DNA from: Balneola sp. EhC07
GTDB lineage: Bacteria > Bacteroidota > Rhodothermia > Balneolales > Balneolaceae
Length of the DNA: 64,000 nt
NCBI RefSeq assembly: GCF_001650905.1
Contig: NZ_LXYG01000017.1
Coordinates: 496,001 to 560,000 of the forward strand
Direction of reading: 5' to 3'
Shown piece by piece: positions 13,668-55,948 of this stretch. The notes below the pieces were generated by a model. The model was given only the letters and a program-made list of their open reading frames with translations. It did no database searches and had not been told where the DNA came from. Every line of letters starts with the position of its first letter. Positions within the stretch are counted from its first letter, which is position 1. The position numbers and the translations under genes are program-made.

Positions 13668-14999
13668 ATGCCTAAGAAGAAAGCGAAGAAGATCTTCGTA
13701 CTCGACACTTCCGTGCTTTTATATGATTATGAAGCCGTTAAGAATTTTGAAAAAAATGACGTTGCAATCCCAATAACAGTCCTGGAGGAACTGGACACCT
13801 TTAAGAAAGGAAATACTGTAATAAACTTACATGCCCGTGAATTCATCCGTTACCTGGATGGAATTTCTGATGAAAATATGCTTCAGGACTGGATTCCGTT
13901 GAATGGGAGATCTCATGGGAAATTAAAAGTTATTACCAATGGCGGAAAACATGTAGATGCCAACAAAGTTTTTGGAGCTACTCGAAACGATCATCATATC
14001 ATAAACGCTGCTCTTCGCCTTAAAAATGAAAATGAAAACACAAAGGTAGTACTTGTTTCAAAAGATATAAATCTTCGACTTAAAGCACGTGCATTAAATC
14101 TGGATGCTGAAGATTATGAAACAGTTCAGGTTAAAGACATTGATCATTTATACAGAGGAAAAACCGATCTGGAGCTTGAAGATCCTTCTCTGATAAGTAA
14201 GTTCTATGATAAAGGCAGGATCAAACCAAAGGATGTGATGGAAGTGAACCCGCCAAGCAATCATTACTATATAATGAAAAGTCATGGATCGTCAGCACTT
14301 GGTTGGTACAATGCTAAGTCAAAGTATATCGAACAGGTTGATAAAATTAATGCGTATGGAATTCAGCCAAAAAATGCGGAGCAAACTTTTGCAATGCATG
14401 CGCTTTTAAACCCGCATATTCTTCTCACAACCATAACCGGAGCTGCAGGAACAGGAAAAACATTGCTGGCATTAGCAAGTGCTTTAGAACAACGAAGTGA
14501 TTTCAAGCAAATATATTTGGCCAGACCAATTGTTCCGCTAAGCAATCGCGATATCGGATATTTACCCGGTGACGCTGAAGCTAAGATCAATCCATATATG
14601 CAGCCACTTTGGGATAATTTGAGTTTCATCAAACATCAATTCAAAGAAACCAGTAAGCAGTACAAAAAAATTGATGAGATGATCCAAACGGATAAACTAC
14701 GAATTGTACCACTGGCTTATATTCGTGGCAGAAGTTTATCGAACGTGGTATTTATTATTGATGAGGCTCAGAACTTAACTCCACATGAAGTGAAGACCAT
14801 TATTACCAGAGCGGGAGTAAATACCAAAGTCATTTTTACAGGAGATATTTTCCAAATTGATACTCCATACTTAGATACTCAAAGCAACGGACTATCTTAT
14901 TTAGTTGATCGTATGCAGAAAAGCGATTTGTATGCTCATATCAACTTAGAAAAAGGAGAGCGGTCAGATCTGGCGAATATTGCTAGTGAGTTGCTCTAG
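13668..14999 (+). CDS. PIN domain-PhoH family ATPase (PhoH2/YlaK type)
   Basis: A 443-residue fusion. The N-terminal PIN ribonuclease-like domain (about 8-160) has acidic metal ligands starting with D13 in FVLDTSVLLYD, and the C-terminal PhoH domain is a RecA-like NTPase. Walker A is GAAGTGKT at 258-265, and Walker B is FIIDEAQNLTPHE, followed by VIFTGDIFQID. PhoH2 proteins are reported RNA helicase/nucleases; that activity is known for relatives, not shown here. The 167 nt upstream hold no gene. The stop codon overlaps the convergent hmuV gene by 4 nt. Confidence 0.93.
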   Translation: MPKKKAKKIFVLDTSVLLYDYEAVKNFEKNDVAIPITVLEELDTFKKGNTVINLHAREFIRYLDGISDENMLQDWIPLNGRSHGKLKVITNGGKHVDANKVFGATRNDHHIINAALRLKNENENTKVVLVSKDINLRLKARALNLDAEDYETVQVKDIDHLYRGKTDLELEDPSLISKFYDKGRIKPKDVMEVNPPSNHYYIMKSHGSSALGWYNAKSKYIEQVDKINAYGIQPKNAEQTFAMHALLNPHILLTTITGAAGTGKTLLALASALEQRSDFKQIYLARPIVPLSNRDIGYLPGDAEAKINPYMQPLWDNLSFIKHQFKETSKQYKKIDEMIQTDKLRIVPLAYIRGRSLSNVVFIIDEAQNLTPHEVKTIITRAGVNTKVIFTGDIFQIDTPYLDTQSNGLSYLVDRMQKSDLYAHINLEKGERSDLANIASELL

Positions 15000-15796
15000 T
15001 TATCAAAAACACGTTCAGAAATAATTAGTGGACATTCTGTTTTTGGATGAGGAATAATATTCACAGGATGGTCAAAAGCATCAAATATGATTTCTTCTGT
15101 TAAAACTTCGAAGGGTGATCCTTCCGTAAGTTTCTGCCCATTTTTAAGAATGATAATATTATCAGAATATTGAGCGGCTAGATTTAAATCATGAATCACA
15201 ATAAATACAGCTACATTTTTTGAGGAAAGCTGTTTTAATAAATGCATGATCTCATGCTGATGAGCCACATCTAAACTAGCCAATGGTTCATCTAAAAACA
15301 GATAAGAGGGTTCATTTGATTCAAAAGCATCCCAAATTTGAGCGAGAGCCCTTGCTATGTGAACCCTCTGCTGTTCTCCCCCTGAAAGTGTAACATAAGA
15401 ACGATTCTTCAGCGATAGTAACCCAACTTTTTGCAAACAGCTTTCAATAATTTCCCGGTCTGCTGATGAACTGAAATATCCAGAGAGTGGAGAGCGGCCA
15501 AGGTTAACTACTTCTTCAACGGAGAAGGAAAAATCTAAGGTCGTTTTTTGGCTAACAACAGCTCTATGCTTGGCTAAATATGAGGGTTTTAGATCAGCAA
15601 TATTTTGATCCTTAAAGAAGATATTTCCTGTAGAATAATCTGATTCACCACAAATTGCTTTAAGGCAAGTAGATTTACCGGCTCCATTTTTGCCTATTAC
15701 TGAGGTCAGGATTCCGGGCTTTACAGAAACTGAAAAATCATCCAGAATTTTTTTTCCTGATTGTGTAGTAACCGATATGTTATTCGCTGAAATCAT
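14996..15796 (-). CDS. hmuV: Heme ABC transporter ATP-binding protein
   Basis: The ATPase of a heme importer, 266 residues. Walker A is GKNGAGKSTCLKAI, the ABC signature LSGGEQQRV, Walker B YLFLDEPLASLD, and the switch histidine lies in VIVIHDLNLAAQYSD. Family membership (FecE/BtuD/HmuV) is clear; heme specificity comes from the hmuS and hmuT genes in the same unit. It overlaps hmuU by 4 nt and is the last gene of the hmuSTUV transcription unit. Confidence 0.93.
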   Translation of the reverse strand: MISANNISVTTQSGKKILDDFSVSVKPGILTSVIGKNGAGKSTCLKAICGESDYSTGNIFFKDQNIADLKPSYLAKHRAVVSQKTTLDFSFSVEEVVNLGRSPLSGYFSSSADREIIESCLQKVGLLSLKNRSYVTLSGGEQQRVHIARALAQIWDAFESNEPSYLFLDEPLASLDVAHQHEIMHLLKQLSSKNVAVFIVIHDLNLAAQYSDNIIILKNGQKLTEGSPFEVLTEEIIFDAFDHPVNIIPHPKTECPLIISERVFDN

Positions 15797-16884
15797 AGGT
15801 GTGCGGATATAGAGCGATTTCTAATCAAAAGCCATAAAAAGAATGGAGCCCCAATTGCTGAAGTAACAATACCAATTGGTAATTCAGCTGGAATAACAAC
15901 CATTCGTGCAAAAAGATCTGAGGCTAGCAATAGCAATGCCCCCAAAAGGATAGAGCCCGGCATCAAAAATCGATGATCCGGCCCAATCATTAAGCGTAAC
16001 AAATGAGGCACTACTAATCCTACAAATCCTATAATTCCGGAAACAGCAACGGAAGCCCCAATACCTAAAGTGGCTAGAAGAATGATTGCTTTTTTAACAA
16101 ATTGGGTATTAACTCCCAGATAACGAGCTTCATGTTCTCCTAAAAGCATCACATTCATTTGCTTTGAAAAGAAAGGTAATCCAATGATTGTTATAAGCAG
16201 AAGTGGTGCTGATTTAGCGACAGTATTCCAAACAGAACCACCTAAACTTCCCAATGTCCAGAAAGTTAGGTCACGAATTTGAACATCATCAGCTGAGAAA
16301 ACCAGAAAACCAATGCCCGCCGCGGCAACAGCATTAACAGCTATGCCGGCTAAAAGCATTGTGGCAATATTTGTTTTTCCGGAACTCGTTGAAATAGTGT
16401 ACACAAGGAGGGTGGCGATAAGACCTCCAACAAAAGCTGAAATAGGTAATAGCGCAGAGTATAAATAATAAGGTAAAAAGCTAAACAGTTGTGCTCCCAG
16501 AATAATAACAAAAGCTGCCGCAAGAGCTGATCCACTAGAAACTCCGATGAGCGTAGGATCCGCCAGTGGGTTTCTAAATAAACCTTGTAATGCAGCTCCG
16601 GAAATAGCGAGTGTAGCTCCTACCAATATGGCGAGAATAACCCTCGGTAACCTTATACTATAAATGATAGCTGATGATTGGACTAGCTCATCCTCAGCGA
16701 AGTCTAAAAATCCTAATTTGTTTGCAAAAATTTTAAGTACAACAGAAGGCTCTATAGAAACAGCCCCAATTCCTACTGATAGTATAGCAAAAGATATAAG
16801 TGCAATTAAAAGTCCAGCGAGTAAAGCATTGCTTTTCCTGAATTTTGAGAGATTTAAAAAATGTGATCTATTGTTAACAGACAC
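15793..16884 (-). CDS. hmuU: Heme ABC transporter permease (FecCD family)
   Basis: The membrane subunit of the heme importer, 363 residues with about nine to ten hydrophobic helices, the normal length for FecCD permeases. Family motifs include RLPRVILAILVGATLAISGA, GLFRNPLADPTLIGVSSG and GFVGLVVPHLLRLMIGPDHR. The last of these is the coupling region that contacts the ATPase. Its start lies 5 nt after the hmuT stop and its end overlaps the hmuV start by 4 nt, so the subunits are translated together. Confidence 0.94.
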   Translation of the reverse strand: MSVNNRSHFLNLSKFRKSNALLAGLLIALISFAILSVGIGAVSIEPSVVLKIFANKLGFLDFAEDELVQSSAIIYSIRLPRVILAILVGATLAISGAALQGLFRNPLADPTLIGVSSGSALAAAFVIILGAQLFSFLPYYLYSALLPISAFVGGLIATLLVYTISTSSGKTNIATMLLAGIAVNAVAAAGIGFLVFSADDVQIRDLTFWTLGSLGGSVWNTVAKSAPLLLITIIGLPFFSKQMNVMLLGEHEARYLGVNTQFVKKAIILLATLGIGASVAVSGIIGFVGLVVPHLLRLMIGPDHRFLMPGSILLGALLLLASDLFARMVVIPAELPIGIVTSAIGAPFFLWLLIRNRSISAHL

Positions 16885-16889
16885 TTGAG

Positions 16890-17777
16890 TTAAATATTAA
16901 CCCCAGGGTGAATTAATTTCATTAAATCTAGAATTGCTGACCCAAATCTAGGCCCAAACCCCAATAGGTAGTTACCTTCCATTCCAATAATATTATCGTT
17001 AGTAACCGCTTTTACGGCATTTACACCAGGTGTTTGCTTTAGTCCGGTACTTATTTCATCAAAACGACTTTGCATCATAAGGATATAATCAGGATTGGCT
17101 GCTATAATGGATTCCAGAGATGCTTGCTTATATCCAGAAAATGAATCGAAAGCATTTTTGCCACCTGCAAATTCGATCATGGCTTGGGCTCCTGTATTAT
17201 TTCCTGCAACCATAAAGTTACTACTTCCACGAACAGCTAATACAAACATTACTTTTGGTTTTTCCTTCAAAGTAGATCTAAGTTCTGCAGCTTTTGTGAA
17301 AGTAGTTTTATTCTGTTCCATGAGTTGGTTAGCTTTCTCTTCGGCGTTTAATGCTTTACCTATTACGGATAGCTTATGAATAACACCTTCAAGAGACTCT
17401 GTTTCTTTTACTAACAGCATATCTGTTCCGGCGCTTCTAATCTGATCAATAGCAGATTTTGGTCCGGCGTCACTACTGGAAATAATTAAGCTTGCTCCAA
17501 GAGATAATACACCTTCTGAGGTAAGATTTCTTAGATATGGAACTCTAGGTAATTGAAAAATTTGTCTCGGAAAAGTACTGGACTGATCTGTGGCAATGAC
17601 ATTTTCGCCATGACCAAGAGCAAATACGGTTTCTGTAATAGAACCACCCATAGTGATAATTTTGTCGGTATTAGTAATAATTACGGTAACATCGTCAGAA
17701 CTTTGAACGGTGGTTTGAGCGTCGGCAATCGTAGCAGAAAGGCTATAGATGATAAAAGAAATGATTAGTGATTTCAT
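16890..17777 (-). CDS. hmuT: Heme ABC transporter periplasmic binding protein
   Basis: A TroA/FecB-fold binding protein of 295 residues with a cleavable signal peptide ending near residue 20 (SLSATIADAQ). The opening of the mature part, DKIITMGGSITETVFALGHG, followed by VIATDQSSTFP, is the standard HmuT pattern. Its job is to pass heme from the outer-membrane receptor to HmuUV. The start overlaps the hmuS stop by 4 nt. Confidence 0.92.
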   Translation of the reverse strand: MKSLIISFIIYSLSATIADAQTTVQSSDDVTVIITNTDKIITMGGSITETVFALGHGENVIATDQSSTFPRQIFQLPRVPYLRNLTSEGVLSLGASLIISSSDAGPKSAIDQIRSAGTDMLLVKETESLEGVIHKLSVIGKALNAEEKANQLMEQNKTTFTKAAELRSTLKEKPKVMFVLAVRGSSNFMVAGNNTGAQAMIEFAGGKNAFDSFSGYKQASLESIIAANPDYILMMQSRFDEISTGLKQTPGVNAVKAVTNDNIIGMEGNYLLGFGPRFGSAILDLMKLIHPGVNI

Positions 17778-18820
17778 GAAAGAACTTGTTTAGGCTTTAA
17801 TCCGTTAATGAGCTCTCTCCAGCTTTCCAATTCAGGTATCCCCGGTTTTCTCGCTCCAAAGAATGTGGCAATATTGTTATTCTCAGCGTCAAAGATTTCT
17901 AGGGAGGTTACGATACCATCTACTGTAGGCTTTTCAACGATCCAAGATCTGCTGATATGATCGTCTCTTAAATGTAGATTGAATTCAGAATCTAACACGT
18001 TTAACCAGTTATCCATTTTCTTAATGTTTTCAACCTTTCCTGAATGAATCTGGATTACAGCTCCACTGGAAACAAATACCATAATAGGAACTTCTTGTTC
18101 AGCTGCTTTATAAAGCAGTGCCTCAGTAGTACTGTTTTCTACAGGTTGAGTAAAACGTCCTTCTGCGATCTCGAATGCATCAGTTCGGTCTACTTTGAAT
18201 TTCCTAAGTAATCCGTAAAAATCATGTGTGTCTTGTAGCTCAGACCACTCCTGCAAGAAAGCTTCTCTATCGATAGTGGTTGAAGTATCTTCTTTTTTAG
18301 TTGGCGGAGCAGGGGTGATCTTTAGTTCAGCATTTTGATCTTCATGGCTGAATTTTTCTACCAAGTTAGAATAGTCATCTAGATGCTCTTCATTCATTAG
18401 GTAAATTTTATGAGCAGCAACACCTTGTTTGTTAAAAAACTGAATGCTGTGAAGTGTTCCTCTTGGATTTTCCACAGGTACCGCATAGGCAAAACCGAAT
18501 TGTCCGGGGAAGATTCTAAGATCTATGTTTGGATCTAATACCAAACCAGCATGTCCATTAAAGCTAATGTTGTGGTATTCTCCTTTTCTTTCATGAACAA
18601 CAGATTCGTTACGAGTAAGAGCCATCACATAGCCCAAATTTTCTATATCTATAAAAATGCCCGGCCAGTCTTCATTTAAGCGAGTCGCATTTTCTAATGT
18701 CGCCACTAGTTCTACTTCACTAACACCAAGTTTGTCAGCAGCATTTTTTATTCTGATTTTTGGGTGTTCTTTTTTAAGTTCTTGCCAATCTTTTTTTAGC
18801 GATGCTTTTGTATTTTCCAA
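17774..18820 (-). CDS. hmuS: Hemin-degrading factor (HemS/ChuS/HmuS family)
   Basis: A 348-residue cytosolic protein of the HemS/ChuS type, built from two homologous halves of about 170 residues. The N-terminal half starts with ASLKKDWQELKKEHPKIRIK, and the second half starts near FLQEWSELQDTHDFYGLLRK. Relatives bind heme after import and either store it or open the ring to free iron. It heads the hmuSTUV unit. A 19-bp palindrome lies 19 nt upstream of its start codon, and the terminator of the hmuRY unit lies just beyond. Confidence 0.92.
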   Translation of the reverse strand: MENTKASLKKDWQELKKEHPKIRIKNAADKLGVSEVELVATLENATRLNEDWPGIFIDIENLGYVMALTRNESVVHERKGEYHNISFNGHAGLVLDPNIDLRIFPGQFGFAYAVPVENPRGTLHSIQFFNKQGVAAHKIYLMNEEHLDDYSNLVEKFSHEDQNAELKITPAPPTKKEDTSTTIDREAFLQEWSELQDTHDFYGLLRKFKVDRTDAFEIAEGRFTQPVENSTTEALLYKAAEQEVPIMVFVSSGAVIQIHSGKVENIKKMDNWLNVLDSEFNLHLRDDHISRSWIVEKPTVDGIVTSLEIFDAENNNIATFFGARKPGIPELESWRELINGLKPKQVLS

Positions 18821-18838: not shown

Positions 18839-18857
18839 ATTTAGAATGAGTCTAAAT
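18839..18857. promoter_or_regulatory. Candidate iron-responsive operator upstream of hmuS
   Basis: ATTTAGAATGAGTCTAAAT is a 19-bp palindrome with one mismatched pair, ending 19 nt before the hmuS start codon. It matches the site before hmuR in half-sites, length and position (ATTTAGA-N5-TCYAAAT). The regulator could be of the Fur or DtxR type (inference). Confidence 0.6.
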
Positions 18858-18877
18858 TAGTAATTTTTTGGAGATAT

Positions 18878-18908
18878 AAAAAACCCATTTATCATAAACG
18901 GGTTTTTA
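18878..18908. terminator. Bidirectional intrinsic terminator between hmuY and hmuS
   Basis: AAAAACCC pairs with GGGTTTTT, extended by TTTA/TAAA across one mismatch. A-rich and T-rich flanks allow termination on either strand. On the minus strand it follows the hmuY stop codon by about 40 nt, separating hmuRY from hmuSTUV. Confidence 0.8.
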
Positions 18909-18946
18909 TAAGGGGAGCAATTGTATTAGAAATACAGATATTACAT

Positions 18947-20011
18947 TTATTCGAAGCTTGTAGATCCATCAGTTTGAACAGCATATTCAAACGTGTAATA
19001 TCTGGATTCTGGCCTTATGAAATTAATAAAGTCTTCAGAAGAGGTATCAGGGTTGCCTTTGTAATAGCTGATAATTCTAATTTTTGCATAAATATCACTA
19101 GCTGTTTTAAGGACTAATGTTAGGTTGTCTTTAGGAAGAATAGCGTGCTTAGGGCCGGTTGGTGCTTCACCTGTATATAAATACCAGTCTGTTACACTTT
19201 CTTCATAACTAGAAATTGGAGCTTCATCTACATCACTATAGGCTATATTTAAAGATTGAATTCCACCACTGTTCTTGGTATTTGCGATGATTGTAGTAGC
19301 ATTAAATCCGATATCCCATTGTGACGAAGAAGAATCTGAAACCATTTCACCTGTTTCTAGGTCATAGTAAGTGAAACTATCTTCATGATACAATTGAGTG
19401 GATTCAGCGTTTTGTAGTGCATACTCGAATGTGAAATACTGACTAGCGGGTCTGGTTAGCATATTTTCAAACTCATCAGATTCGGTATCAGGATTACCTT
19501 CGTAATAGCTGATCATTCTAACTTTTGCATATTTTCCTGTTGAAGTTTTAATAATGAGCGTTTCGTCTTCGTTTGGAAAAATAGCATGTTTAGGACCGTT
19601 AGGTGCTTCTCCAGTATATGTATACCAGCTAGTGTTGCTTGCTTCAAAACCTGTAGTAGGAGCGGTATCGACATCATCATAAGCTGTTTCAACTAATTGA
19701 ATTCCACCATCATTACCAGAGTTAGCTAGTATTGTTGTGCCACTAAAAGCAATATCCCAATCCGCAGAAAGAGAATCTGATACAGTAGCTCCCGTTTCAA
19801 AATCAAAGAAGGTATAGTTTTCTTTATTATCAGGATTGTCTTGTACATCACTCGCTGTAAATTCACTCATTGTGTTTACATTTGCAGGGATATCTTCAGC
19901 CATTTGTCCTTCGACTGGAGCTGGTCCGTTTGAGCCTGAGTCCTCACATGCAAAAAAGCCAAAGGCTAATACCGTGACAAGTAGAGTTAGTTTATTATTT
20001 AGTGAATTCAT
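18947..20011 (-). CDS. hmuY: HmuY-type heme-binding lipoprotein with two tandem domains
   Basis: A 354-residue lipoprotein with a lipobox ending at C22 (FGFFAC). After a spacer it has two copies of the same domain, about residues 64-200 and 212-346. Both contain WDI-F--TTI-AN, WY-YTGEAP-GPKHAI and ISYY-GNPDT blocks. Single-domain HmuY proteins in Porphyromonas bind heme at the cell surface and deliver it to HmuR. The same role is likely here, because the gene starts 16 nt downstream of a TonB-dependent receptor gene. The tandem duplication is unusual. Heme ligands cannot be assigned by eye. Confidence 0.82.
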   Translation of the reverse strand: MNSLNNKLTLLVTVLAFGFFACEDSGSNGPAPVEGQMAEDIPANVNTMSEFTASDVQDNPDNKENYTFFDFETGATVSDSLSADWDIAFSGTTILANSGNDGGIQLVETAYDDVDTAPTTGFEASNTSWYTYTGEAPNGPKHAIFPNEDETLIIKTSTGKYAKVRMISYYEGNPDTESDEFENMLTRPASQYFTFEYALQNAESTQLYHEDSFTYYDLETGEMVSDSSSSQWDIGFNATTIIANTKNSGGIQSLNIAYSDVDEAPISSYEESVTDWYLYTGEAPTGPKHAILPKDNLTLVLKTASDIYAKIRIISYYKGNPDTSSEDFINFIRPESRYYTFEYAVQTDGSTSFE

Positions 20012-20027
20012 AAATAGAAATATGTAT

Positions 20028-22316
20028 TTAATAGATGTTGATATTTAATTGTGTATAAAAAGTAGTGCCGGGGTTTGAGGGCAGTAAAATCTCATTTTTG
20101 TAATTATTGAGATTGTTAATGCCAACCCTGATTTTGAAACTCTTCCCTAATTGTTTTGCAATAGAAGTGTTAATCATGGTGTGATTTTCAGCGTACTCAT
20201 TTTCATCAGGGCTGTTGTTAACATTGTTATCGCTGAACCAGTATTTACCTCGGTGTCGAATTCGGAGGCTGGCATCCAGACCAATTTTTTCGAATGCGTA
20301 AAACAGTTTGAAGTTTGCCGTATGCTTAGAGCGATTGAAAAGAGGGATGTATATCTTTTTAGTAACGGTTACTACTTGCCCATTTTGGACATCATCCTGT
20401 TCAAAAGTTATTTCTCTTTGAGCATCTAGATATTGGTAGCCGGCAGAAATGTTTAAACCAGAAATGAAATCGGGGTTGTAGCTAAGCTCTGTTTCAACTC
20501 CCTGAGTGTAAATTTTATTCAAATTCACATACGAGAATACGGATTGACCGTTTGTTTTAAGAGCTATTCGCTGCGTTTCAATGAGTTCGTCTACGTTGTT
20601 TCTGAATCCATTGATCTTAAAAGTGATTCTATCTGTTAAGAATAAGTCGAAACCTAGATTGTAAGCGATAGAACTTTCAGATTGAATATCTGTGAGTTCA
20701 CTAGGGTTTACATAAAGTTCTTCAATCTGTCCATCTTGTTGAAGTTGGTCAATTCCCTCTTGTACGGTAGATGTTCCAAAAACACTATAACCGGCAATTG
20801 GGTTAGTGAAGTTTAAAAATAATTGTCTAAAATCAGGTGCTTTGAATCCACCACCAAAAGAACCGCGAATATGAATTAATTTACTTGGTTTGTATAAAGC
20901 TGAAAACTTAGGACTTAATTGAGAAGAGTATTCACTATGAGCATCGAATCTGAATCCAGTGGTAAGAGAAAGTTTTTTATTTAGGTCCCATTCATGTTGC
21001 CCAAATCCGAAATAACTGTCAAAGAATGGAACGTCTGCATAAATATCAGCCGTTAGATCCTCTCGATTCATTCCTATTCCGGCAATAGTTGTGTGCTGAT
21101 TATCCCAGAAAGTAGAACTTTGGACTTCATATTTATTCAAAGTTTGGCCAAAGGAATCATTGAAATATGATTCACCGGTGCTTTGAAAATCGAGATTGCT
21201 TTCACTTTCAAAGCTGCTAAAAAATGCAGTAGCTTCAAATAACTGTTTATCAGATATTAGTAGTTTGATACTTGGCGCAACACTAAAGTTCTCCTGAAAC
21301 TCAGTTCCATTGAGATCTTCTGGTTGATTAGAAATATCGATTCTATCATCATAAGTTTGATTTTCCCTATAATATCTAGAGTTAAGAGATACAGAGAACT
21401 TTTTAGATAAACGATATCCAGCTTCACCAGAAAAAGTATAGTTATCGTACTTCGGGATGGTAGGCGCTACTGTATTTTTACTAAGGTCGTATCCGTTTGA
21501 AGAATTTATATTTCCAAAAATTTGCCCTGAAAAATCCCCCTTTTTAAAAGATAAGTTTGATGAGCCGTCGTAAGAATCATGCGTTCCATATCTTCCGGTT
21601 ACATTCCACTTAATTGGTTGTTCTGCTTTTTCAGTGATTATATTTATCACACCTGCCAAAGCGTTGCTACCCCACAACGCAGAAGAAGGACCTTTAACAA
21701 TTTCAATTTGCTCAACATTACCTACCGCTAGGCGCTCTAAGTTCAAAGTGCCTGCAGTTCGTCCTATAACGGGTTGGTTATCAATAAGAATAAGCGTGTA
21801 ATCAGGATCGAAACCTTGAACTTGTATTCCTGTTCCATGATTTGATACGACGTTCATTCCAATTTGCTCATCTAGAATATCCGTCAATCGGATACTACCG
21901 GTTGTTTCAATTTCTTCTTGATCAACGATTGCAACAGGAACGCTAATTTCATCTAAGCTTTTTTCCGACCTAGATGCTGTAATTAAAACTTCTTTTTCTT
22001 TGTATACTTTTATTTCTAGTGTAACATTGATCGATAGAGTTTGATCGGCTTTTATTTCAACAGGGATTGTTTTCTTTGTATAGCCAAGACTCGTTACTAT
22101 GAGTGAATAATTTCCTGGAGTTATAGTTGAGATGGAATACATTCCATCATCATTTGTAATATGCCATTTCGATTCACTTAGATAAACTGATGCCCCAGAG
22201 ATAGAGTCTCCATTGCTAGACGTGACTCTCCCGATGATAGATCCAGATTGAGGGAAAACAATAGTTCTAAAGCCTAATACGAGTAAAAATGGTACTAGGC
22301 GTTTGATTAATTTCAA
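20028..22316 (-). CDS. hmuR: TonB-dependent heme receptor
   Basis: A 762-residue outer-membrane receptor. A signal peptide ends near residue 23. A carboxypeptidase-regulatory-like beta domain follows (about 24-105, GRVTSSNGDSISGASVYLSE), then the plug (about 118-230, with VEQIEIVKGPSSALWGSNAL) and a 22-strand barrel ending FYTQLNINIY. Heme as substrate is inferred from hmuY directly downstream and hmuSTUV beyond it. A 35-bp palindrome lies 9-43 nt upstream of the start codon and probably controls it. No tonB or exbBD gene is in the window. Confidence 0.9.
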   Translation of the reverse strand: MKLIKRLVPFLLVLGFRTIVFPQSGSIIGRVTSSNGDSISGASVYLSESKWHITNDDGMYSISTITPGNYSLIVTSLGYTKKTIPVEIKADQTLSINVTLEIKVYKEKEVLITASRSEKSLDEISVPVAIVDQEEIETTGSIRLTDILDEQIGMNVVSNHGTGIQVQGFDPDYTLILIDNQPVIGRTAGTLNLERLAVGNVEQIEIVKGPSSALWGSNALAGVINIITEKAEQPIKWNVTGRYGTHDSYDGSSNLSFKKGDFSGQIFGNINSSNGYDLSKNTVAPTIPKYDNYTFSGEAGYRLSKKFSVSLNSRYYRENQTYDDRIDISNQPEDLNGTEFQENFSVAPSIKLLISDKQLFEATAFFSSFESESNLDFQSTGESYFNDSFGQTLNKYEVQSSTFWDNQHTTIAGIGMNREDLTADIYADVPFFDSYFGFGQHEWDLNKKLSLTTGFRFDAHSEYSSQLSPKFSALYKPSKLIHIRGSFGGGFKAPDFRQLFLNFTNPIAGYSVFGTSTVQEGIDQLQQDGQIEELYVNPSELTDIQSESSIAYNLGFDLFLTDRITFKINGFRNNVDELIETQRIALKTNGQSVFSYVNLNKIYTQGVETELSYNPDFISGLNISAGYQYLDAQREITFEQDDVQNGQVVTVTKKIYIPLFNRSKHTANFKLFYAFEKIGLDASLRIRHRGKYWFSDNNVNNSPDENEYAENHTMINTSIAKQLGKSFKIRVGINNLNNYKNEILLPSNPGTTFYTQLNINIY

Positions 22317-22324
22317 AAAGAGAT

Positions 22325-22359
22325 TTTCTTTTATTTAGATTCAATCCAAATAAAAGAAA
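22325..22359. promoter_or_regulatory. Candidate iron-responsive operator upstream of hmuR (35-bp palindrome)
   Basis: A 35-bp palindrome centred on C22342 with one mismatched pair. Its core at 22333-22351, ATTTAGATTCAATCCAAAT, matches the hmuS site in half-sites and spacing to the gene (17 nt before the start codon here, 19 nt there). Confidence 0.65.
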
Positions 22360-44079: not shown

Positions 44080-46332
44080 TCAATTCTCTTCAGCCCAATC
44101 TTCCTGCCATTCACCTTTTTCTTTTAAGAATTGGACTACATTTTCACGCATTATCCCAAGATCAGCATAAATCTTCTTTTCAAACGCTTCAAAATTTTGT
44201 GACTCTTTTATCCGGAAAAAAGGAATCTCGGATGTGATAATTAATGGATAATTTGCTTTGGAGTTTAATTCGAAATAGAATTTTTCCATCGCAGCTACAG
44301 CTTCGTCATATTGCTCTGTTGCGATCTGGCACCATAGTTTAACATCTAATTCGTTATAGATTTCTATGTGACCACTCTCTTCCATTTCGGTCAATCTTTT
44401 ATCTTTATATTCACATAATCGATCAGCGATCATTTCAACTTCCTCCACTTTCCCTGCTTTATCAGCTAATGTGAGATAAAAGATCGAAGCAGTTTGTTGA
44501 TCCTCATTAACTATTTCTTTCCCGGGTTCATCAAGAAAATCAGAAAATCTCATTTTCAATAAATCTAAGCCTTCCTGATATTCTTCTTTCTCATAATGAT
44601 AAGCCAACAGATCAATCACAAAGAATTCCACTGTTCGTTCTCCGTATGTTTCAATTAGTTCATTGACTATCTTTTTCGTGGTCTCAAAGTCTCCTCTGGT
44701 CTGGCTGGTTTTCAAAAGGTTACGAGGACCTGCATGATTCTCAGGATACTTTTCAGAGATTTTCTCCCCAAAATATTCAGCCATATTCAGCATGTTAAGA
44801 TCTCGAGCGATATCTGAGACCATCCACATAAAATCCATGTCATCCGGGTTTTGCAGATGTCCTTCATAAGCAAAGGTAAAAGCATTATCGAGTTCTCCAT
44901 AGGGAACATCACGCAGTAACCATGCTTTGGCATAATAAGAGCCATTATAATCAGGAGTTCGTTTGATATTGCGATCAATGATATCCATTGCCTCATAATA
45001 CCTGTTTTCCACATCTGCCAGATGACGTGCATAGGAATTGGATATATACGGACTCAACGGATCCAGTTCATAGGCTTTAAATAATTGAGCTCTGGATTCT
45101 TGAACTTTATTATTTCTTCCCAGTGCACTTCTGTAATCCATTCGTATAGAAGCATCATTGGGGGCAAGTTCAACAGCTTTTTTGAGCGTTTCTTCGCTTT
45201 TTTCGAATTGAAATTCAAAACCATAATAATCTGCCAGTGCCTGATGAGCTTTTCCAAGATCTTTGTCTAACGAGATTGCCATTTCCGCATTCTCTCTCAT
45301 TAGCACTTTGGTTTCGTCCGCACCTATGTTTCCATTCTGATGAAGGTTATTGTATGCAAGAGCTAAACGAGCATAAGCTTCCGCAAAGGTAGGATCGAGT
45401 CGAATCGCTTCTTTATATTTTTGAATGGCATATTCAATATCATCCGGTTGGTAGGTGATCTCTCGCTGAGTAGCCTCCAGAAAGGCATTGTACGCTTCAA
45501 TGTCCATGGTTGGACGACTGGCTAACTGAGCTTCATCTTTAGGAAGTAAGCGTACTTTTAGTTCTTCCATTACATGTAAGGAGATCTCTTCCTGTATATC
45601 AAAAATATTGTCGACCGTAAATTCACGATCATAGGTTTCGCTCCACATATGGAAGCCGTCAGAAACACGGATCAACTGAGCTGTAATTCGAAGTCGGTTT
45701 CCTGACTTGCGAACGCTGCCTTCCAGAATATTAGCAACTCCAAGTTCACTCCCGATCTCAGTCAGATTCTCGTTCTGCCCTTTGAATTTGAAAGAAGAAG
45801 TTCGTCCTGCTACCTGCATATCTTCTACTTTGGCGAGAGCATTGAGTAATTCTTCTGAAAGTCCGTCAGAGAAATACTCATTTTCTTTATCACTACTCAT
45901 ATTTACAAATGGAAGTACTGCAATAGATGCTGTTTCAATTTTAGCTACAGCACCTGCATCTTCTAAAATGGAAGCTTTGGCAAAGAAAACTCTTTCGATA
46001 ACTACAAAAAATAAAGCAATGGATAACACTGAAATAATAACGCCATTCAGTTTTTTTCCGGTTCGGTCAGTAACGGATTCTGTAATCTCAACTTCTCTGG
46101 ATTTTTTGATTCCTTCCGGTGTTAATTCAAATGCCCATGCAAAAATAAGTGTGAGTGGGAATCCTATTCCAACAAATACAATTACGACGGTATCAAACCA
46201 ATCGGGGATGTTAAGAGGTGCTTCAATTACAGTAACGATCTGAATGATCAACCATCCGGCAATAGCATAAGCTACGGCTACTTTAAAGACGTTCCGACGT
46301 TTTAGTTCTTCTATAAAGTTCGAAATGTTCAT
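44080..46332 (-). CDS. Membrane-anchored FlgO-like/TPR protein, array copy A (last in transcription order)
   Basis: A 750-residue protein. Basic N-terminus (ELKRRNVFKVA); membrane helices about 17-36, 47-70 and 97-113. A FlgO/TolB-N-like domain covers about 135-262 (TASIAVLPFVNMSS, EYFSDGLSEELLNALAKV, ILEGSVRKSGNRLRITAQLI). TPR-type helices start near residue 298 (YAIQKYKEAIRLDPTFAEAY). The positive-inside rule puts the C-terminal 630 residues in the periplasm. In other bacteria this module is often fused to a cyclase or a DNA-binding domain; none is present here. It ends with the array's shared tail, FLKEKGEWQEDWAEEN. Function unknown. Confidence 0.85.
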   Translation of the reverse strand: MNISNFIEELKRRNVFKVAVAYAIAGWLIIQIVTVIEAPLNIPDWFDTVVIVFVGIGFPLTLIFAWAFELTPEGIKKSREVEITESVTDRTGKKLNGVIISVLSIALFFVVIERVFFAKASILEDAGAVAKIETASIAVLPFVNMSSDKENEYFSDGLSEELLNALAKVEDMQVAGRTSSFKFKGQNENLTEIGSELGVANILEGSVRKSGNRLRITAQLIRVSDGFHMWSETYDREFTVDNIFDIQEEISLHVMEELKVRLLPKDEAQLASRPTMDIEAYNAFLEATQREITYQPDDIEYAIQKYKEAIRLDPTFAEAYARLALAYNNLHQNGNIGADETKVLMRENAEMAISLDKDLGKAHQALADYYGFEFQFEKSEETLKKAVELAPNDASIRMDYRSALGRNNKVQESRAQLFKAYELDPLSPYISNSYARHLADVENRYYEAMDIIDRNIKRTPDYNGSYYAKAWLLRDVPYGELDNAFTFAYEGHLQNPDDMDFMWMVSDIARDLNMLNMAEYFGEKISEKYPENHAGPRNLLKTSQTRGDFETTKKIVNELIETYGERTVEFFVIDLLAYHYEKEEYQEGLDLLKMRFSDFLDEPGKEIVNEDQQTASIFYLTLADKAGKVEEVEMIADRLCEYKDKRLTEMEESGHIEIYNELDVKLWCQIATEQYDEAVAAMEKFYFELNSKANYPLIITSEIPFFRIKESQNFEAFEKKIYADLGIMRENVVQFLKEKGEWQEDWAEEN

Positions 46333-46362
46333 AACGCTTCGCGGATTAAAAATTTTTGTATT

Positions 46363-46446
46363 GTCATGTCGAACAGATGTGAGATATCTAAAGAATACCT
46401 AAACCGGCATAAAACCTCTAGACTTCTCACATTCGATCGAAGTGAC
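46363..46446. repeat. 84-bp inverted-repeat element in array spacer 1
   Basis: Arms of about 31 nt at 46363-46393 and 46416-46446 (from GTCATGTCGAACAGATGTGA to GATCGAAGTGAC) sit in the 157-bp spacer between copies A and B. The arms have more mismatches than in spacers 3 and 4. Confidence 0.8.
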
Positions 46447-46489
46447 AGAGTGAAAGGGGAAGTAATTTTTAATTCTAAATCTTTCATTT

Positions 46490-48745
46490 TTAATTCTCTT
46501 CCCATTCTTTTTTCCAGTCGCCTTCTTCTTTGAGGTAGATAATCACTTCGCTCCGCATTTTATGAATGTCATCTAAAATGAGTTCTTTGGTTTTTATCAT
46601 TTCGGGATGGTCTTTATAAAGCAGAAATACATCGCTAAGAAAAGCAAAAGGATATGCTCTTTTTCCCTTTCGCTCGAAGTAATATTCTTTGAGTTGATCT
46701 ATTCCTTCCTTTACATTTCCCTTAATAAGATTACAATTCATTGACATCCATAAATCGTTAGGATCTAAATCGGAATCAGTGGTTTCTTTGCCCTGATTTT
46801 TGGCGCTATAGTCTTCACAAATACTATTAATAAAGAATTGAGCTTCTTTTTCTTTGCCTTCATCAATTAACACGGTCGCATAAAGAAATACCAGGTCTAA
46901 TGCATCTCTTTTTAACAAATCGTTGTTGTAAGAGTCAAAGTCAAACGTTTTGTTTGCAATCTCCGGCCAATGTTTATCTATCATTTCTAAAATTTCTTCG
47001 TTTCTCCCTAGTATGAATAGGTTGCTGGAATAAGAAGAAGTCATAAATTTTTCAACCTGAGGACCAAATTGAGTTTTCATAGCATCCATTGTACTAAGAG
47101 CCAGCTCGCTTTGCCCCATCAATGTTTGGGTTTCTAACATACCACCTATAGCTTCAAAGTTGCTGGGATAAAGCTCTAACATTTTATCTGAATAGTATTT
47201 TCTTACCGGAATCAGATCTAGGTCAGAAGAGAGACCAACGATTAAACTTAATATTTCCAGAGATTCAGGGTTTTCTTTTAAAGCCTTATGTGCGGCTATA
47301 AAAGCTTTATCTAGATCTCCATTAGGAATTAATGCCAGTGTAGAGATTTTTGCGCGGTGAGCAGAGGTATAGTCAGGGGCTCTGGCAATTACTTTGTCCA
47401 GCAATTCAATTCCCTTTTCATATTCTTTTCTTACCAGAAAAAGTGAAGCGTAATTTACTGCGATCGGATTGCTTAAAGGGTCTAGTTGATACGCTTTTTC
47501 TAAATATCTATATGCTTCTTCTTCACTTCGGCTTTTGATAGCTATATATAAACTGTTATAGGCATACGCATCGTTTGGGGTTAATTCAATTGCTTTTCGA
47601 TATGCATTTTCAGCGGCTATTAGCGCATTTTCTTCAAGTCGCTGGTTCTGATAAAAACCAAGTGCCCGATATACAATTCCAAGGTTTGGGTTGATCAATA
47701 ATGCTTTATTAATATTGGTATCCATTTTTTCAAGCATCTCAGCAAATGACAAGTTTCCATATTGGTTTAACAAGCCATAAGCAATTGCTAAACGAGCGTA
47801 GGCTTCTGTAAATGTTGGATCAATTTCTATTGCTTGTTCATAAAGCGTGATAGCTGTTTCCAGATCTTCCGGGCTACGACTTACTTCTAATTGCGTTGCT
47901 TTAAGGAAAGCGTTATAAGCTTCAATATCATCTGTAGGACGCTTTGCAATTTCTTCTTCATCAACAGGGAGTAGGCGTACTTTTAGTTCTTGCACAACTT
48001 TACGGGAAATTTCTTCCTGTATGGCAAAAATGCCCTCCAGTTCCCGGTCATAGGTTTCACTCCAAAGATGGAAACCGTTATCAGCCTGAACAAGCTGAGC
48101 AGTGATTCTAATCTGATCACCATCTTTACGGACACTACCTTCAAGAATGTGCTTTACTCCGAGTTGTTCAGCAATGACCCTTAAATCCGCATTTTTATTT
48201 TTAAAACTAAATGAAGAAGTACGTCCCGCAACCTGCATTCCTTCAATATTAGCAAGTCCATTTAATAACTCTTCTGAAAGTCCATCTGAGAAATATTCGT
48301 TGGATTGATCTGCACTCATATTTACGAAAGGGAGAACGGCAATGGATGCATTTTCAATCTTAGATACATCCGAATCAAAAATGGTAGATTGAGCAAAAAA
48401 GATCCGTTCCACTAAAAGAAATACTAATCCAAAAGATAGAGCACCTATGATGAGTCTATTCAATTTCTTTCCGGTTGATTCGGTAACTGACTCTGTTATT
48501 TCAATGTCTTTTGATTTCTCTATTCCTTCAGGGGTGAGTTCAAAAGCCCATGCAAAAATAAGCGCTAACGGGAAGCCAATAAGTACCAACGTAGTTACAA
48601 GAGGAGCAACCCATTCCGGGAATCCGAGTTGCGGTGCAATTGTATCAAATACCTGAATGATCAACCAACCGGCAATAGCGTAAGCAGTAGCTACTTTAAA
48701 TACATTACGCCGCTTTAGTTCTTGTATGAAATTCGAGATGTTCAT
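46490..48745 (-). CDS. Membrane-anchored FlgO-like/TPR protein, array copy B
   Basis: A 751-residue paralog with the N-terminal plan of copy A. The third helix reads LIIGALSFGLVFLLVERIFF and the FlgO-like domain has SIAVLPFVNMSADQSN and HILEGSVRKDGDQIRITAQL. Its TPR section (from about 297: AITLYEQAIEIDPTFTEAYA) is clearly diverged from the others and has a strongly acidic late region (KGKETTDSDLDPNDLW). It ends YLKEEGDWKKEWEEN. It lies exactly 157 bp downstream of copy C and 157 bp upstream of copy A. The intact frame over 2.25 kb argues against decay. Confidence 0.85.
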   Translation of the reverse strand: MNISNFIQELKRRNVFKVATAYAIAGWLIIQVFDTIAPQLGFPEWVAPLVTTLVLIGFPLALIFAWAFELTPEGIEKSKDIEITESVTESTGKKLNRLIIGALSFGLVFLLVERIFFAQSTIFDSDVSKIENASIAVLPFVNMSADQSNEYFSDGLSEELLNGLANIEGMQVAGRTSSFSFKNKNADLRVIAEQLGVKHILEGSVRKDGDQIRITAQLVQADNGFHLWSETYDRELEGIFAIQEEISRKVVQELKVRLLPVDEEEIAKRPTDDIEAYNAFLKATQLEVSRSPEDLETAITLYEQAIEIDPTFTEAYARLAIAYGLLNQYGNLSFAEMLEKMDTNINKALLINPNLGIVYRALGFYQNQRLEENALIAAENAYRKAIELTPNDAYAYNSLYIAIKSRSEEEAYRYLEKAYQLDPLSNPIAVNYASLFLVRKEYEKGIELLDKVIARAPDYTSAHRAKISTLALIPNGDLDKAFIAAHKALKENPESLEILSLIVGLSSDLDLIPVRKYYSDKMLELYPSNFEAIGGMLETQTLMGQSELALSTMDAMKTQFGPQVEKFMTSSYSSNLFILGRNEEILEMIDKHWPEIANKTFDFDSYNNDLLKRDALDLVFLYATVLIDEGKEKEAQFFINSICEDYSAKNQGKETTDSDLDPNDLWMSMNCNLIKGNVKEGIDQLKEYYFERKGKRAYPFAFLSDVFLLYKDHPEMIKTKELILDDIHKMRSEVIIYLKEEGDWKKEWEEN

Positions 48746-48775
48746 GTCGCTTGGCGAATTGAAAATTCGAGCTTT

Positions 48776-48859
48776 GTCTTGTTGTACGGATGTGAGACAT
48801 CTAAAGAATCACTAAACAGGTATAAAACCTCTAGACTTCTCACGTTCGTTCGAAGTGAC
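48776..48859. repeat. 84-bp inverted-repeat element in array spacer 2
   Basis: Same element as in the other spacers. The left arm is the most degenerate of the four (GTCTTGTTGTACGGATGTGA), the right arm well preserved (TCTCACGTTCGTTCGAAGTG). Confidence 0.78.
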
Positions 48860-48902
48860 AGATTGGAAGAAGGGATGATCTTTAATTTTACATTCTTCAT
48901 TT

Positions 48903-51149
48903 TTAATTCCCTTCATCCCATTCTTCTTTCCAGTCGCCTTCAGCTTTCAGGTAAGCAATAAGGTTTTCTTTTTGATCTCTCAGATCAGCAAATACAACGT
49001 CCATGATTTTCTTGAACTCAGGGTGCTCCATTGCAAGTTGGAATTTTTTGTCTTTTTTAAGTGACCTGTATTCATTTCCGCGATTATTTCTTTCCAGATA
49101 AAGTTTTGTAATGATTGGAATGACGGCGTCAATTTGCTCTCTTTCCAAAAGACAGGTTGCTTGATCGAATAAATACCAATTATCTTCTTCTTTTTGTGGA
49201 TAGAGATCCACATTTGATGTGCTAAAAGCACAGAACTTATCTAATAATAAGTCTGCTTTTTCTTTTTCATCTGTGAATTTGTAAAGTTCACGAAGAGGCA
49301 ATGTATGCCATAGATTTTGCATACTAATTGTCAGGTCTTTTGGGGTCAATAAAGTGGAATCAAATTTAGCGAACCACTGTAGTGCAAATTCAGGATCATC
49401 TTTATAAATAGCATAATCAGTCATTGTCCAATAAAACCCTGAAGAACCAGGTACAAGATCAGATTCTTCAATATGTGGTAACAGTCCATCCTCTACATAC
49501 GAATAATCAGATGTATAAGAAGCAAATGTTCCTGCGCGGTTTATATAATCTAAACTTTCAGAATAGTTTCTTTTCAATATCTCCATATAATGTCTGGCAA
49601 CTGGTTCCAGATCAAGTTCCAGAGCCCTCGTAGCCATAATATTTAAAGAGCGGGTAAAGTTATTGTCGAGTTGGTAGGCTTTATGTACGGCCATAAATGC
49701 CTCATCCAATCGCCCATAATGCGGGTCGGATTTCAGGAATGCCAATCCTAAGTATGTAGGAACAAATTCGGGATTGTTTTTTTTATTTATTTCATGAAAC
49801 GAAAGTGCTTCTTCATATTTATCTTCAAATTGACTGGCTTGGGCCCGGTTGTAGATAGATAGAGGAGACAAAGGATCCACCTTATACATTTTCTTGTATT
49901 GATCATTTCCTTTCTGGAAATCATTTAGCTCATCCATGTACAGGTTTCCTAACCAATTGTACACATCTGATAGGTTAGGATTTAACTCCAGGCTTTTTAA
50001 AAAGGCTTTTTCTGATTCTTCAAAATCTGTTTTCATGTCATGTAACAAGCCTAAGGCAGCATAAGCTTCAGCTAAGTTTTCATCTATCGAGAAAGCTTGG
50101 TCAACATGAGGTGTCATGTTTTCAATTTGTTGTTCTCTGGGGACATTCCCATAATATCCCTGTAAATTATAGGCAATAGCTAACCGTGCATGTGCTTCAG
50201 CGAAAAAGGGATCAATACTGAGAGCTTGTTTGTAGAGATCTATCGCAACATTTATCTCATCTATATCCCGGTTTACCACAAGCTGGTTTGCTTTCAGATA
50301 CATAGAGTATCCCTCAATATCAGATGTTGGAATGTTTTCCAACTCAGACTCATCTTCAGGCAACAGGTGTACTTTCAATTCACTTAATACCGTGCGCGAA
50401 ATTTCTTCCTGTATCTCAAAAATGTTTGTTGCTGTAAGTTCCCGGTCAAAAGTCTCTGACCACATATGGAACCCATCATCCACTTTAATGAGCTGAGCAG
50501 TTATTCGAACTCTACCTCCAGCTTTTCTGACGCTACCTTCCAGAATATGACCAACCCCAAGTTGGTCCCCAACGATTTTTAAATCTTCGTTTTTCCCTTT
50601 GAATTTAAATGAAGAAGTACGTCCGGCTACTTTCATTTCTTTTACTTTAGCGAGAGCATTGAGCAGTTCCTCAGAAAGACCATCAGAAAAATATTCATTG
50701 TTTTCATCTCCACTCATATTCACAAAAGGGAGCACAGCAATGGAAGCTGTTTGAAAATCAGCAAGTTCTGATTGGTTTTCTATAAAAGAAGCCTCCGCAA
50801 AGAATACACGTTCTACCAAAAGAAAGATCACTGCCATGGAAAGAATAGTGATAATAATCCCATTAAGTTTTTTACCGGTACGGTTGGTTACGGATTCAGT
50901 GATGTCCACTTCCTGGGATTTTTTTAGTCCTTCAGGCGTTAATTCAAATGCCCAGGCAAAGATCAGGGCCAGAGGAAAACCAACTAAAACCAAAACGGTA
51001 AAAAAGGGTGCTACCCAGTCAGGGAAACCAAGTTGTGGAGATACGGTAGAAACAACCTGAATAATCAACCATCCTGCAATAGCATACGCAGTCGCAACTT
51101 TAAAGACATTACGCCTTTTTAGTTCTTCTATGAAATTTGAGATGTTCAT
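48903..51149 (-). CDS. Membrane-anchored FlgO-like/TPR protein, array copy C
   Basis: A 748-residue paralog. The start MNISNFIEELKRRNVFKVAT and helices at about 17-36, 46-70 and 97-114 match the other copies. The FlgO-like domain has SIAVLPFVNMSGDENN and RITAQLIKVDDGFHMWSE. The TPR block is long and regular (AIDLYKQALSIDPFFAEAHA; KAFLKSLELNPNLSDVYNWL; YKKMYKVDPLSPLSIYNRAQ) and shares QGYYGNVP and the YNRA stretch with copy E, suggesting those two are sister copies. The tail reads YLKAEGDWKEEWDEGN. Both flanking gaps are 157 bp. Confidence 0.85.
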   Translation of the reverse strand: MNISNFIEELKRRNVFKVATAYAIAGWLIIQVVSTVSPQLGFPDWVAPFFTVLVLVGFPLALIFAWAFELTPEGLKKSQEVDITESVTNRTGKKLNGIIITILSMAVIFLLVERVFFAEASFIENQSELADFQTASIAVLPFVNMSGDENNEYFSDGLSEELLNALAKVKEMKVAGRTSSFKFKGKNEDLKIVGDQLGVGHILEGSVRKAGGRVRITAQLIKVDDGFHMWSETFDRELTATNIFEIQEEISRTVLSELKVHLLPEDESELENIPTSDIEGYSMYLKANQLVVNRDIDEINVAIDLYKQALSIDPFFAEAHARLAIAYNLQGYYGNVPREQQIENMTPHVDQAFSIDENLAEAYAALGLLHDMKTDFEESEKAFLKSLELNPNLSDVYNWLGNLYMDELNDFQKGNDQYKKMYKVDPLSPLSIYNRAQASQFEDKYEEALSFHEINKKNNPEFVPTYLGLAFLKSDPHYGRLDEAFMAVHKAYQLDNNFTRSLNIMATRALELDLEPVARHYMEILKRNYSESLDYINRAGTFASYTSDYSYVEDGLLPHIEESDLVPGSSGFYWTMTDYAIYKDDPEFALQWFAKFDSTLLTPKDLTISMQNLWHTLPLRELYKFTDEKEKADLLLDKFCAFSTSNVDLYPQKEEDNWYLFDQATCLLEREQIDAVIPIITKLYLERNNRGNEYRSLKKDKKFQLAMEHPEFKKIMDVVFADLRDQKENLIAYLKAEGDWKEEWDEGN

Positions 51150-51179
51150 AATGCTTCGCGGATTAAAAATTCTTCTATT

Positions 51180-51263
51180 GTCATGTCGAACGGATGTGAG
51201 ACATCTAAAGAATCACTAAACCCGCATAAAACCGTTAGACTTCTCACATACGTTCGAAGTGAC
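51180..51263. repeat. 84-bp inverted-repeat element in array spacer 3
   Basis: Arms from GTCATGTCGAACGGATGTGA to TCTCACATACGTTCGAAGTG and on to GAC, about 31 nt each, with few mismatches. By hand count spacer 3 and spacer 4 agree at about 135 of 157 positions with no gaps. Confidence 0.85.
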
Positions 51264-51306
51264 AGAAGGGAAGAGGGGATAATCTTTAATTTTAAATTCT
51301 TCATTT

Positions 51307-53553: not shown

Positions 53554-53583
53554 GACGTTTTACGAATTAAAAATTCTTGTATT

Positions 53584-53667
53584 GTCATGTAGAACGGATG
53601 TGAGACATCTAAAGGATCACTAAAAGGGAACAATACCTCTAGACTTCTCACATCCGTTCGAAGTGAC
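53584..53667. repeat. 84-bp inverted-repeat element in array spacer 4
   Basis: The core arms GAACGGATGTGAGA and TCTCACATCCGTTC are perfect complements, inside outer arms with two 2-nt mismatches. The element sits in the same place in the 157-bp spacer as the other three. Confidence 0.85.
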
Positions 53668-53710
53668 AGATTGGAAGACGGGATAATCTTTAATTTTACA
53701 TTCTTCATTT

Positions 53711-55939: not shown

Positions 55940-55948
55940 ATACCCCAC

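Follow-up and report, generated by a model that had tools for sequence, protein, structure and literature searches.

The present analysis concerns a 64,000-nt stretch of the Balneola sp. EhC07 genome (contig NZ_LXYG01000017.1, positions 496,001 to 560,000; hereafter the window), in which two heme-uptake operons on the minus strand, hmuRY and hmuSTUV, are each preceded by a 19-bp palindrome of their own. The palindrome is a real and conserved box and, judging from the sequences compared, very probably a Fur-type operator, that is, an element of a known kind in a new lineage. The reading that both copies are operators at which Fur would repress hmuRY and hmuSTUV, and that one box serves a wider iron regulon, is held here with considerable confidence.

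The palindromes and their counterparts in the Balneola genome

A preliminary description of this DNA had placed a palindrome before each heme operon, and both are found there on the minus strand: the predicted Fur-type boxes occupy 18839-18857 (hmuS) and 22333-22351 (hmuR) and read, on the coding strand, ATTTAGACTCATTCTAAAT and ATTTGGATTGAATCTAAAT, respectively. In the window, ATTTAGA-N5-TCYAAAT is matched exactly three times when both strands are counted, always at these two places, and 100 dinucleotide shuffles of the window gave none (mean 0.00, maximum 0), so that the observation of the two palindromes is confirmed. The shared length of 19 bp holds, whereas the half-sites, described as identical, are not: compared to a palindrome of ATTTAGA and TCTAAAT, the hmuS box has no mismatch and the hmuR box has one, its right half being TCCAAAT instead of TCTAAAT. 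The hmuR site does extend to a 35-bp palindrome (22325-22359) with 17-bp arms and one mismatch, and the gaps to the TTG start codons measure 16 nt at hmuR and 18 nt at hmuS rather than the 17 and 19 nt given before. With two mismatches allowed, the window holds 4 matches against 3.5 expected, and the whole genome (3.62 Mb in 20 contigs) holds 87 against 82 for a reversed control. Only tight matches therefore carry signal; the two-mismatch genome scan was not used, and the claims below refer to exact or one-mismatch sites.

When the strict palindrome ATTTAGA-N5-TCTAAAT was searched for in this genome with at most one mismatch, nine places were found (reversed control, three), all nine of them intergenic and facing iron-uptake or iron-using genes. 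Besides the heme-uptake genes hmuS and hmuR, these are a gene for an ABC binding protein labelled FbpA-like (L008; Pfam SBP_bac_6), a Fe2+ transport gene (L010; PF10634), a DUF4856 gene followed by an imelysin gene, which has a pair of boxes that begin 49 bp from each other (L013:2972 and L013:3021), a gene for an IscA/ErpA-type Fe-S protein (L016), nuoA with a DUF151-like gene (labelled from its sequence) on the other side of the box (L009), and a multiheme cytochrome gene labelled actA-type (L011; Pfam Cytochrome_C7). The Fe(III) role of the L008 protein is only presumed, because its best NCBIfam match is an aminoethylphosphonate model, far below cut-off. A tenth, weaker site, with two mismatches to the strict palindrome, precedes sufB (L018). 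The motif had been proposed as the iron box of this lineage; the genomic set bears this out, the same trend is seen in the family, and the motif proved neither absent from other iron genes nor as frequent inside coding regions. The looser TCY pattern, with at most one mismatch, yielded five further candidates (C8:10259, C12:189427, C16:13277, C16:280009 and C19:173020), which lie inside open reading frames (ORFs) and were rejected.

Paired boxes like those at L013 occur in 6 of 8 genus genomes, and in one of these (G002) the pair precedes a TonB receptor gene; such pairs may allow cooperative binding. The DUF4856 protein behind the double box (L013:1723-2940), with its imelysin neighbour, has a distant counterpart after a box in genus g19 (L115:185-1465).

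Conservation in Balneolaceae

The exact motif is present in 76 of 92 family genomes, with 128 occurrences in all, against 3 for the reversed control. Of 29 family loci that were read (L030-L058), 26 have the site between genes and 3 have it no more than 48 nt into an over-long ORF. The genes faced by the box, identified by BLAST against references from the Balneola genome, are FbpA-like in 10 loci, permease-like in 9 (the box often having a small lipoprotein-like gene as its other neighbour), HmuS in 2, and HmuR-like in 2, where the BLAST matches are weak and TonB plug domains are present. In addition, the box faces a BPD permease by Pfam at L038 (L043 looks alike, from appearance only), a PF10634 protein at L036, a TonB receptor at L031 (the same site as L162), and a CbiX-domain protein at L055, with a similar one at L056 recognised by eye. 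In ten genomes without Fur or DtxR, 16 sites were read; 15 are intergenic, and the remaining one lies 54 nt or less into an ORF. In 20 stretches from the genus, 21 sites within one mismatch of the motif were read; 16 are intergenic, and 3 more sit at over-long ORF starts (L151, L152 and L164).

Alignment of upstream regions shows that the half-sites stay fixed in promoters that have otherwise diverged. In front of the FbpA-like gene (10 sequences), 13 of 14 half-site columns are invariant compared to 8 of 131 other columns; the same 13 of 14 are invariant at hmuS (5 sequences; other upstream columns, 25 of 131) and at hmuR (3 sequences; others, 59 of 131). All 14 are invariant before the HesB-type genes (3 sequences; others, 69 of 131) and the actA-type genes (7 sequences, four of them near-identical; others, 58 of 131). 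The hmuS box is kept in four other Balneolaceae, 17-23 nt from the start codon, and the hmuR box is kept in L024 (two mismatches, 14 nt) and L026 (one mismatch, 18 nt).

A secreted-looking CbiX-domain protein begins 18-25 nt after an exact box at two loci (L055:1538 and L161:2307); a part in metal or porphyrin handling is possible.

Fur and the competing regulators

The preliminary description had left the choice between Fur and a DtxR-type regulator open. The genome encodes one of each, a single Fur (PF01475, E 2.3e-28) and a single DtxR homologue with a FeoA domain. Within the family, the presence or absence of the two proteins was set aside as a test and a draw from the phylum was used in its place, since both are near-universal in the family and the absences roughly fit the incompleteness of metagenome-assembled genomes (MAGs). 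In the phylum draw of 394 genomes, for which the motif, Fur and DtxR tables were joined by hand, the exact motif is present in 139, Fur in 343 and DtxR in 269. Outside the family, the motif is present in 101 genomes, 100 of them with Fur and 87 with DtxR; of the 255 motif-negative genomes of the draw, 50 lack Fur and 110 lack DtxR. Both proteins are thus associated with the motif, so that the exceptions decide, and the genomes are related, so that their counts are not independent.

The exceptions point to Fur. In the only Fur-less case (G417), both sites lie inside ORFs, as chance would place them. On the other hand, an operator of DtxR/IdeR would occur only where a DtxR-type regulator is present, and 14 of the 101 genomes have no PF02742 match; some of the sites in these 14 may be due to chance, but they include all seven motif-positive members of family f38, in which none of the nine members drawn has DtxR and the exact motif nevertheless occurs 8 times against 0 for the control. 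All eight f38 sites are intergenic. Three have an imelysin gene on one side and a divergent gene on the other, one precedes FeoB (by 225 nt), one Rrf2, two have DUF6686-type neighbours, and one is unclear; one imelysin, FeoB, Rrf2 and one DUF6686 were confirmed by Pfam, and the remainder were assigned by eye. Furthermore, the box stands 10-12 nt before fur itself in three genomes of three families (G153, G306 and G389; PF01475 confirmed in each, the distance in G153 counting from a downstream GTG start). In G153 and G306, fur is followed by a FeoB-like gene, so labelled from its sequence, and G306 and G389 have no DtxR match.

The box also has a counterpart with a measured regulator. In the available portions of the Riemerella anatipestifer reports, the same 19-mer is predicted as the Fur box (ATTTAGAATTATTCTAAAT; PMC5609570), Fur shifts four promoters, hmuR among them, in electrophoretic mobility shift assays (EMSA; PMC5609570), the rhuB box is backed by EMSA and by derepression in a fur mutant (PMC10986502), and rhuH is derepressed by mutation of its Fur box (PMC11967795). 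Some boxes in the R. anatipestifer table match poorly (PMC5609570), and a later paper gives the E. coli consensus as the box of that species (PMC7976709), again as far as the available text goes. The two systems are alike in the length of 19 bp, the half-sites, targets such as hmuR and TonB receptors, and a distance of at most 100 nt from the start codon. They differ in that R. anatipestifer belongs to the Flavobacteriales and its Fur binding and dependence have been measured; the targets here extend to Fe-S assembly, complex I and an actA-type gene, counterparts of which were not looked for in R. anatipestifer. In the available text of one F. psychrophilum and one F. columnare paper, the term Fur box is absent. 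By its features, a half-site palindrome in iron-uptake promoters of a genome that encodes Fur, the element would appear to be a Fur box of the flavobacterial type. The classical E. coli Fur box (GATAATGATAATCATTATC) is likewise a 19-bp palindrome placed at iron genes, but comparison with the hmuS box by eye gives agreement at only about 7 of 19 positions, in line with the poor fit remarked on earlier.

Several observations weigh against Fur, or against the reach of the box. Upstream of fur in the Balneola genome no box was found (best match, five mismatches), and hence no site for autoregulation. In the phylum draw, the reversed control matches 31 genomes outside the family, so that perhaps a third of the 101 positives there are due to chance. 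Within the family, 5 of the 92 genomes, all MAGs, have no Fur match, and in one more Fur is represented by a weak paralogue only; in each of these six, an iron-type gene still has a box in front of it at one site or more (11 of 12 sites read). In genus g19, 4 of 9 members lack a good Fur compared to about 1.5 expected. From incompleteness alone, about 7 copies would be expected to be missing from 92 genomes, and these box-bearing MAGs without Fur perhaps reflect assembly gaps. At least 12 family members have a box 3.5-18 kb from dtxR, and the iron-type dtxR of G096 has a box 33 nt in front of it, which could mean cross-regulation or DtxR control in that genome. In the genus, counts at one mismatch are only 5-11 compared to 2-5 for the control, and 2 of the 21 sites lie well inside ORFs (L158 and L159). 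Outside the family and f38, 5 of 22 sites read are inside ORFs (L130, L139, L141, L146 and L131, the last of these in an over-long 5' end of fur), and 10 have no recognised iron gene beside them (L126, L127, L128, L129, L132, L134, L136, L137, L142 and L145). Seven of the 22 adjoin fur (L143 and L144), a TonB receptor gene (L133), a di-heme oxidoreductase gene (L138), a DUF4856 gene (L140), or dtxR together with a DUF6686-like gene (L135). The sites in ORFs and those without iron genes make the reach of the box beyond the family uncertain lineage by lineage.

That the box belongs instead to the DtxR-type regulator, as an IdeR-like iron repressor, is improbable. The DtxR/IdeR box is also a 19-bp palindrome in iron promoters with a TTAG-type half-site, but the spacing differs, its TTAGG half-sites being placed two bases farther from the centre than the half-sites here. 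The encoded DtxR with its FeoA domain, the dtxR genes within reach of a box, the box before dtxR in G096, the MAGs in which no Fur was found, and the 87 outside genomes with DtxR are what this explanation can draw on. It is opposed by the DtxR-less genomes, above all those of f38 with sites beside iron genes, by the binding of R. anatipestifer Fur to promoters with the same box in the available text of PMC5609570, and by the family, where DtxR was not found in 8 of 92 genomes, 6 of which have the exact motif. The Balneola DtxR itself looks manganese-type from its sequence: it has Asp and Glu at two positions, which we take to be those of metal specificity, where the iron-type DtxR of G096 has Met and Cys, and its best NCBIfam model is the Mn-dependent MntR (229 bits, below the cut-off of 350). 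Overall, the phylum exceptions, the fur-adjacent boxes and the DtxR features favour Fur over DtxR, short of proof.

Very improbable, too, is use of the box by a Fur-family protein that resembles Irr or PerR and responds to heme or peroxide rather than to ferrous iron. Fe-S assembly and respiratory genes do carry the box, and according to the rhizobial work available in part, the Sinorhizobium ICE half-site TTCTAA (S. meliloti mbfA), which lies inside the right half of many boxes, belongs to a system that also has a Fur-family regulator; the comparison was made by half-site. However, the same sources have rhizobial Irr repressing at low iron, the opposite of what uptake genes need, and no Irr-type protein above cut-off was found in the Balneola genome, whose only detected Fur-family protein scores 41.5 bits on the Irr model (cut-off 170). 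Its best score is on the Fur model (81.1, not reaching the cut-off of 146), with the PerR model close behind (74.6, cut-off 180). Finally, chance palindromes in A+T-rich intergenic DNA can be credited with almost no probability: at two mismatches the motif is indeed no commoner than its control, but the exact counts in the family (128 compared to 3) contradict chance, as do half-sites that stay invariant in diverged promoters.

DUF6686-type small proteins stand directly beside exact boxes in two families (L119:3019, L123:1593 and L135:2124; L119 was confirmed by Pfam, and L123 and L135 were assigned by eye, the latter without a Pfam match), and these proteins are perhaps iron-regulated.

The heme locus and the proposed action of Fur

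The genes had been described as heme-uptake operons, and their Pfam domains agree. All lie on the minus strand in the order hmuR-hmuY, a terminator-like hairpin, and hmuS-T-U-V. The first unit encodes an hmuR-like TonB-dependent receptor of 762 aa (20028-22316; PF00593, PF07715) and a HmuY-like protein of 354 aa with two tandem HmuY-type halves (18947-20011; PF14064); the second encodes HmuS, a HemS/ChuX-type heme protein of 348 aa (17774-18820; PF05171, PF06228), an hmuT-like periplasmic binding protein (16890-17777; PF01497), an hmuU-like FecCD permease (15793-16884; PF01032) and an hmuV-like ABC ATPase (14996-15796; PF00005). The closest named relatives of HmuS are from a Balneola sp. MAG (73% identity) and two Balneolaceae MAGs (69% each). 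The hairpin, recognised by eye, lies between hmuY and the hmuS box (18878-18907), and in the upstream alignment at hmuS it is visible in relatives with changed stem bases; given such a terminator, hmuS would need its own promoter.

The two halves of the HmuY-like protein are 56% identical over 129 aa, and HmuY-like proteins of the same length occur in relatives L024 and L026. In relative L025, a 1213-codon ORF (L025:3215-6856) lies upstream of hmuS and no hmuRY was seen there, although the box in front of hmuS persists, with one mismatch. Elsewhere in the window, the five consecutive genes at 44080-55948 (745-751 codons, about 2.4 kb apart, 41-57% mutually identical) are an old tandem gene array; the one member that was scanned (48903-51149) has TPR repeats.

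In the proposed mechanism, plentiful iron would let metal-loaded Fur dimers bind ATTTAGA-N5-TCTAAAT and shut off the hmuRY and hmuSTUV promoters; under iron scarcity, Fur would leave the DNA and heme uptake would be expressed. Through the same box, genes for the uptake or use of iron in this Balneolaceae genome would form one regulon. What the sequences show is that the sites exist, are conserved, stand in front of iron genes and keep company with fur; from this, Fur binding, metal dependence and repression are inferred. Fur-family boxes have a 7-1-7 layout, with which the base preferences at 47 distinct exact sites in the fetched family loci appear compatible (T at -1 in 54%, A or T at -2 in 77%). 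The -7 element of Bacteroidota promoters is TAnnTTTG. An exact copy begins 15-17 bp after the box centre in 7 of 10 FbpA-like promoters and at the Fe2+ transport gene, so that the box would cover the -33/-7 spacer there, and box and element overlap at sufB and the HesB-type genes; both arrangements suggest repression by occlusion. No exact TAnnTTTG was found near the box at hmuR, hmuS or the DUF4856 gene, and at the two heme genes the gap of 14-23 nt points to a box that overlaps the promoter in its downstream part.

The actA-type genes are arranged differently: in all four promoters listed, the sole exact TAnnTTTG is 55-56 bp after the box centre, which would put the box near -66, an activator-like place. 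At nuoA there is no exact TAnnTTTG, and the box is 113 nt from the start codon. A tentative and rather unlikely extension is that Balneola Fur acts in two ways on one box, repressing the uptake genes by covering their promoters and activating respiratory iron-protein genes from an upstream site, the targets being the actA-type multiheme cytochrome operon and perhaps complex I. If true, investment in the respiratory chain would be tied directly to iron supply, and control of respiratory iron-protein operons by Fur in Balneolaceae is a suggestion that can be tested. More generally, the operator can be scanned for to predict which genes are under iron control in Balneolaceae, and probably also in Bacteroidota other than the few pathogens studied; it also points to the unstudied DUF4856, DUF6686 and secreted CbiX-domain proteins as families that may be iron-regulated.

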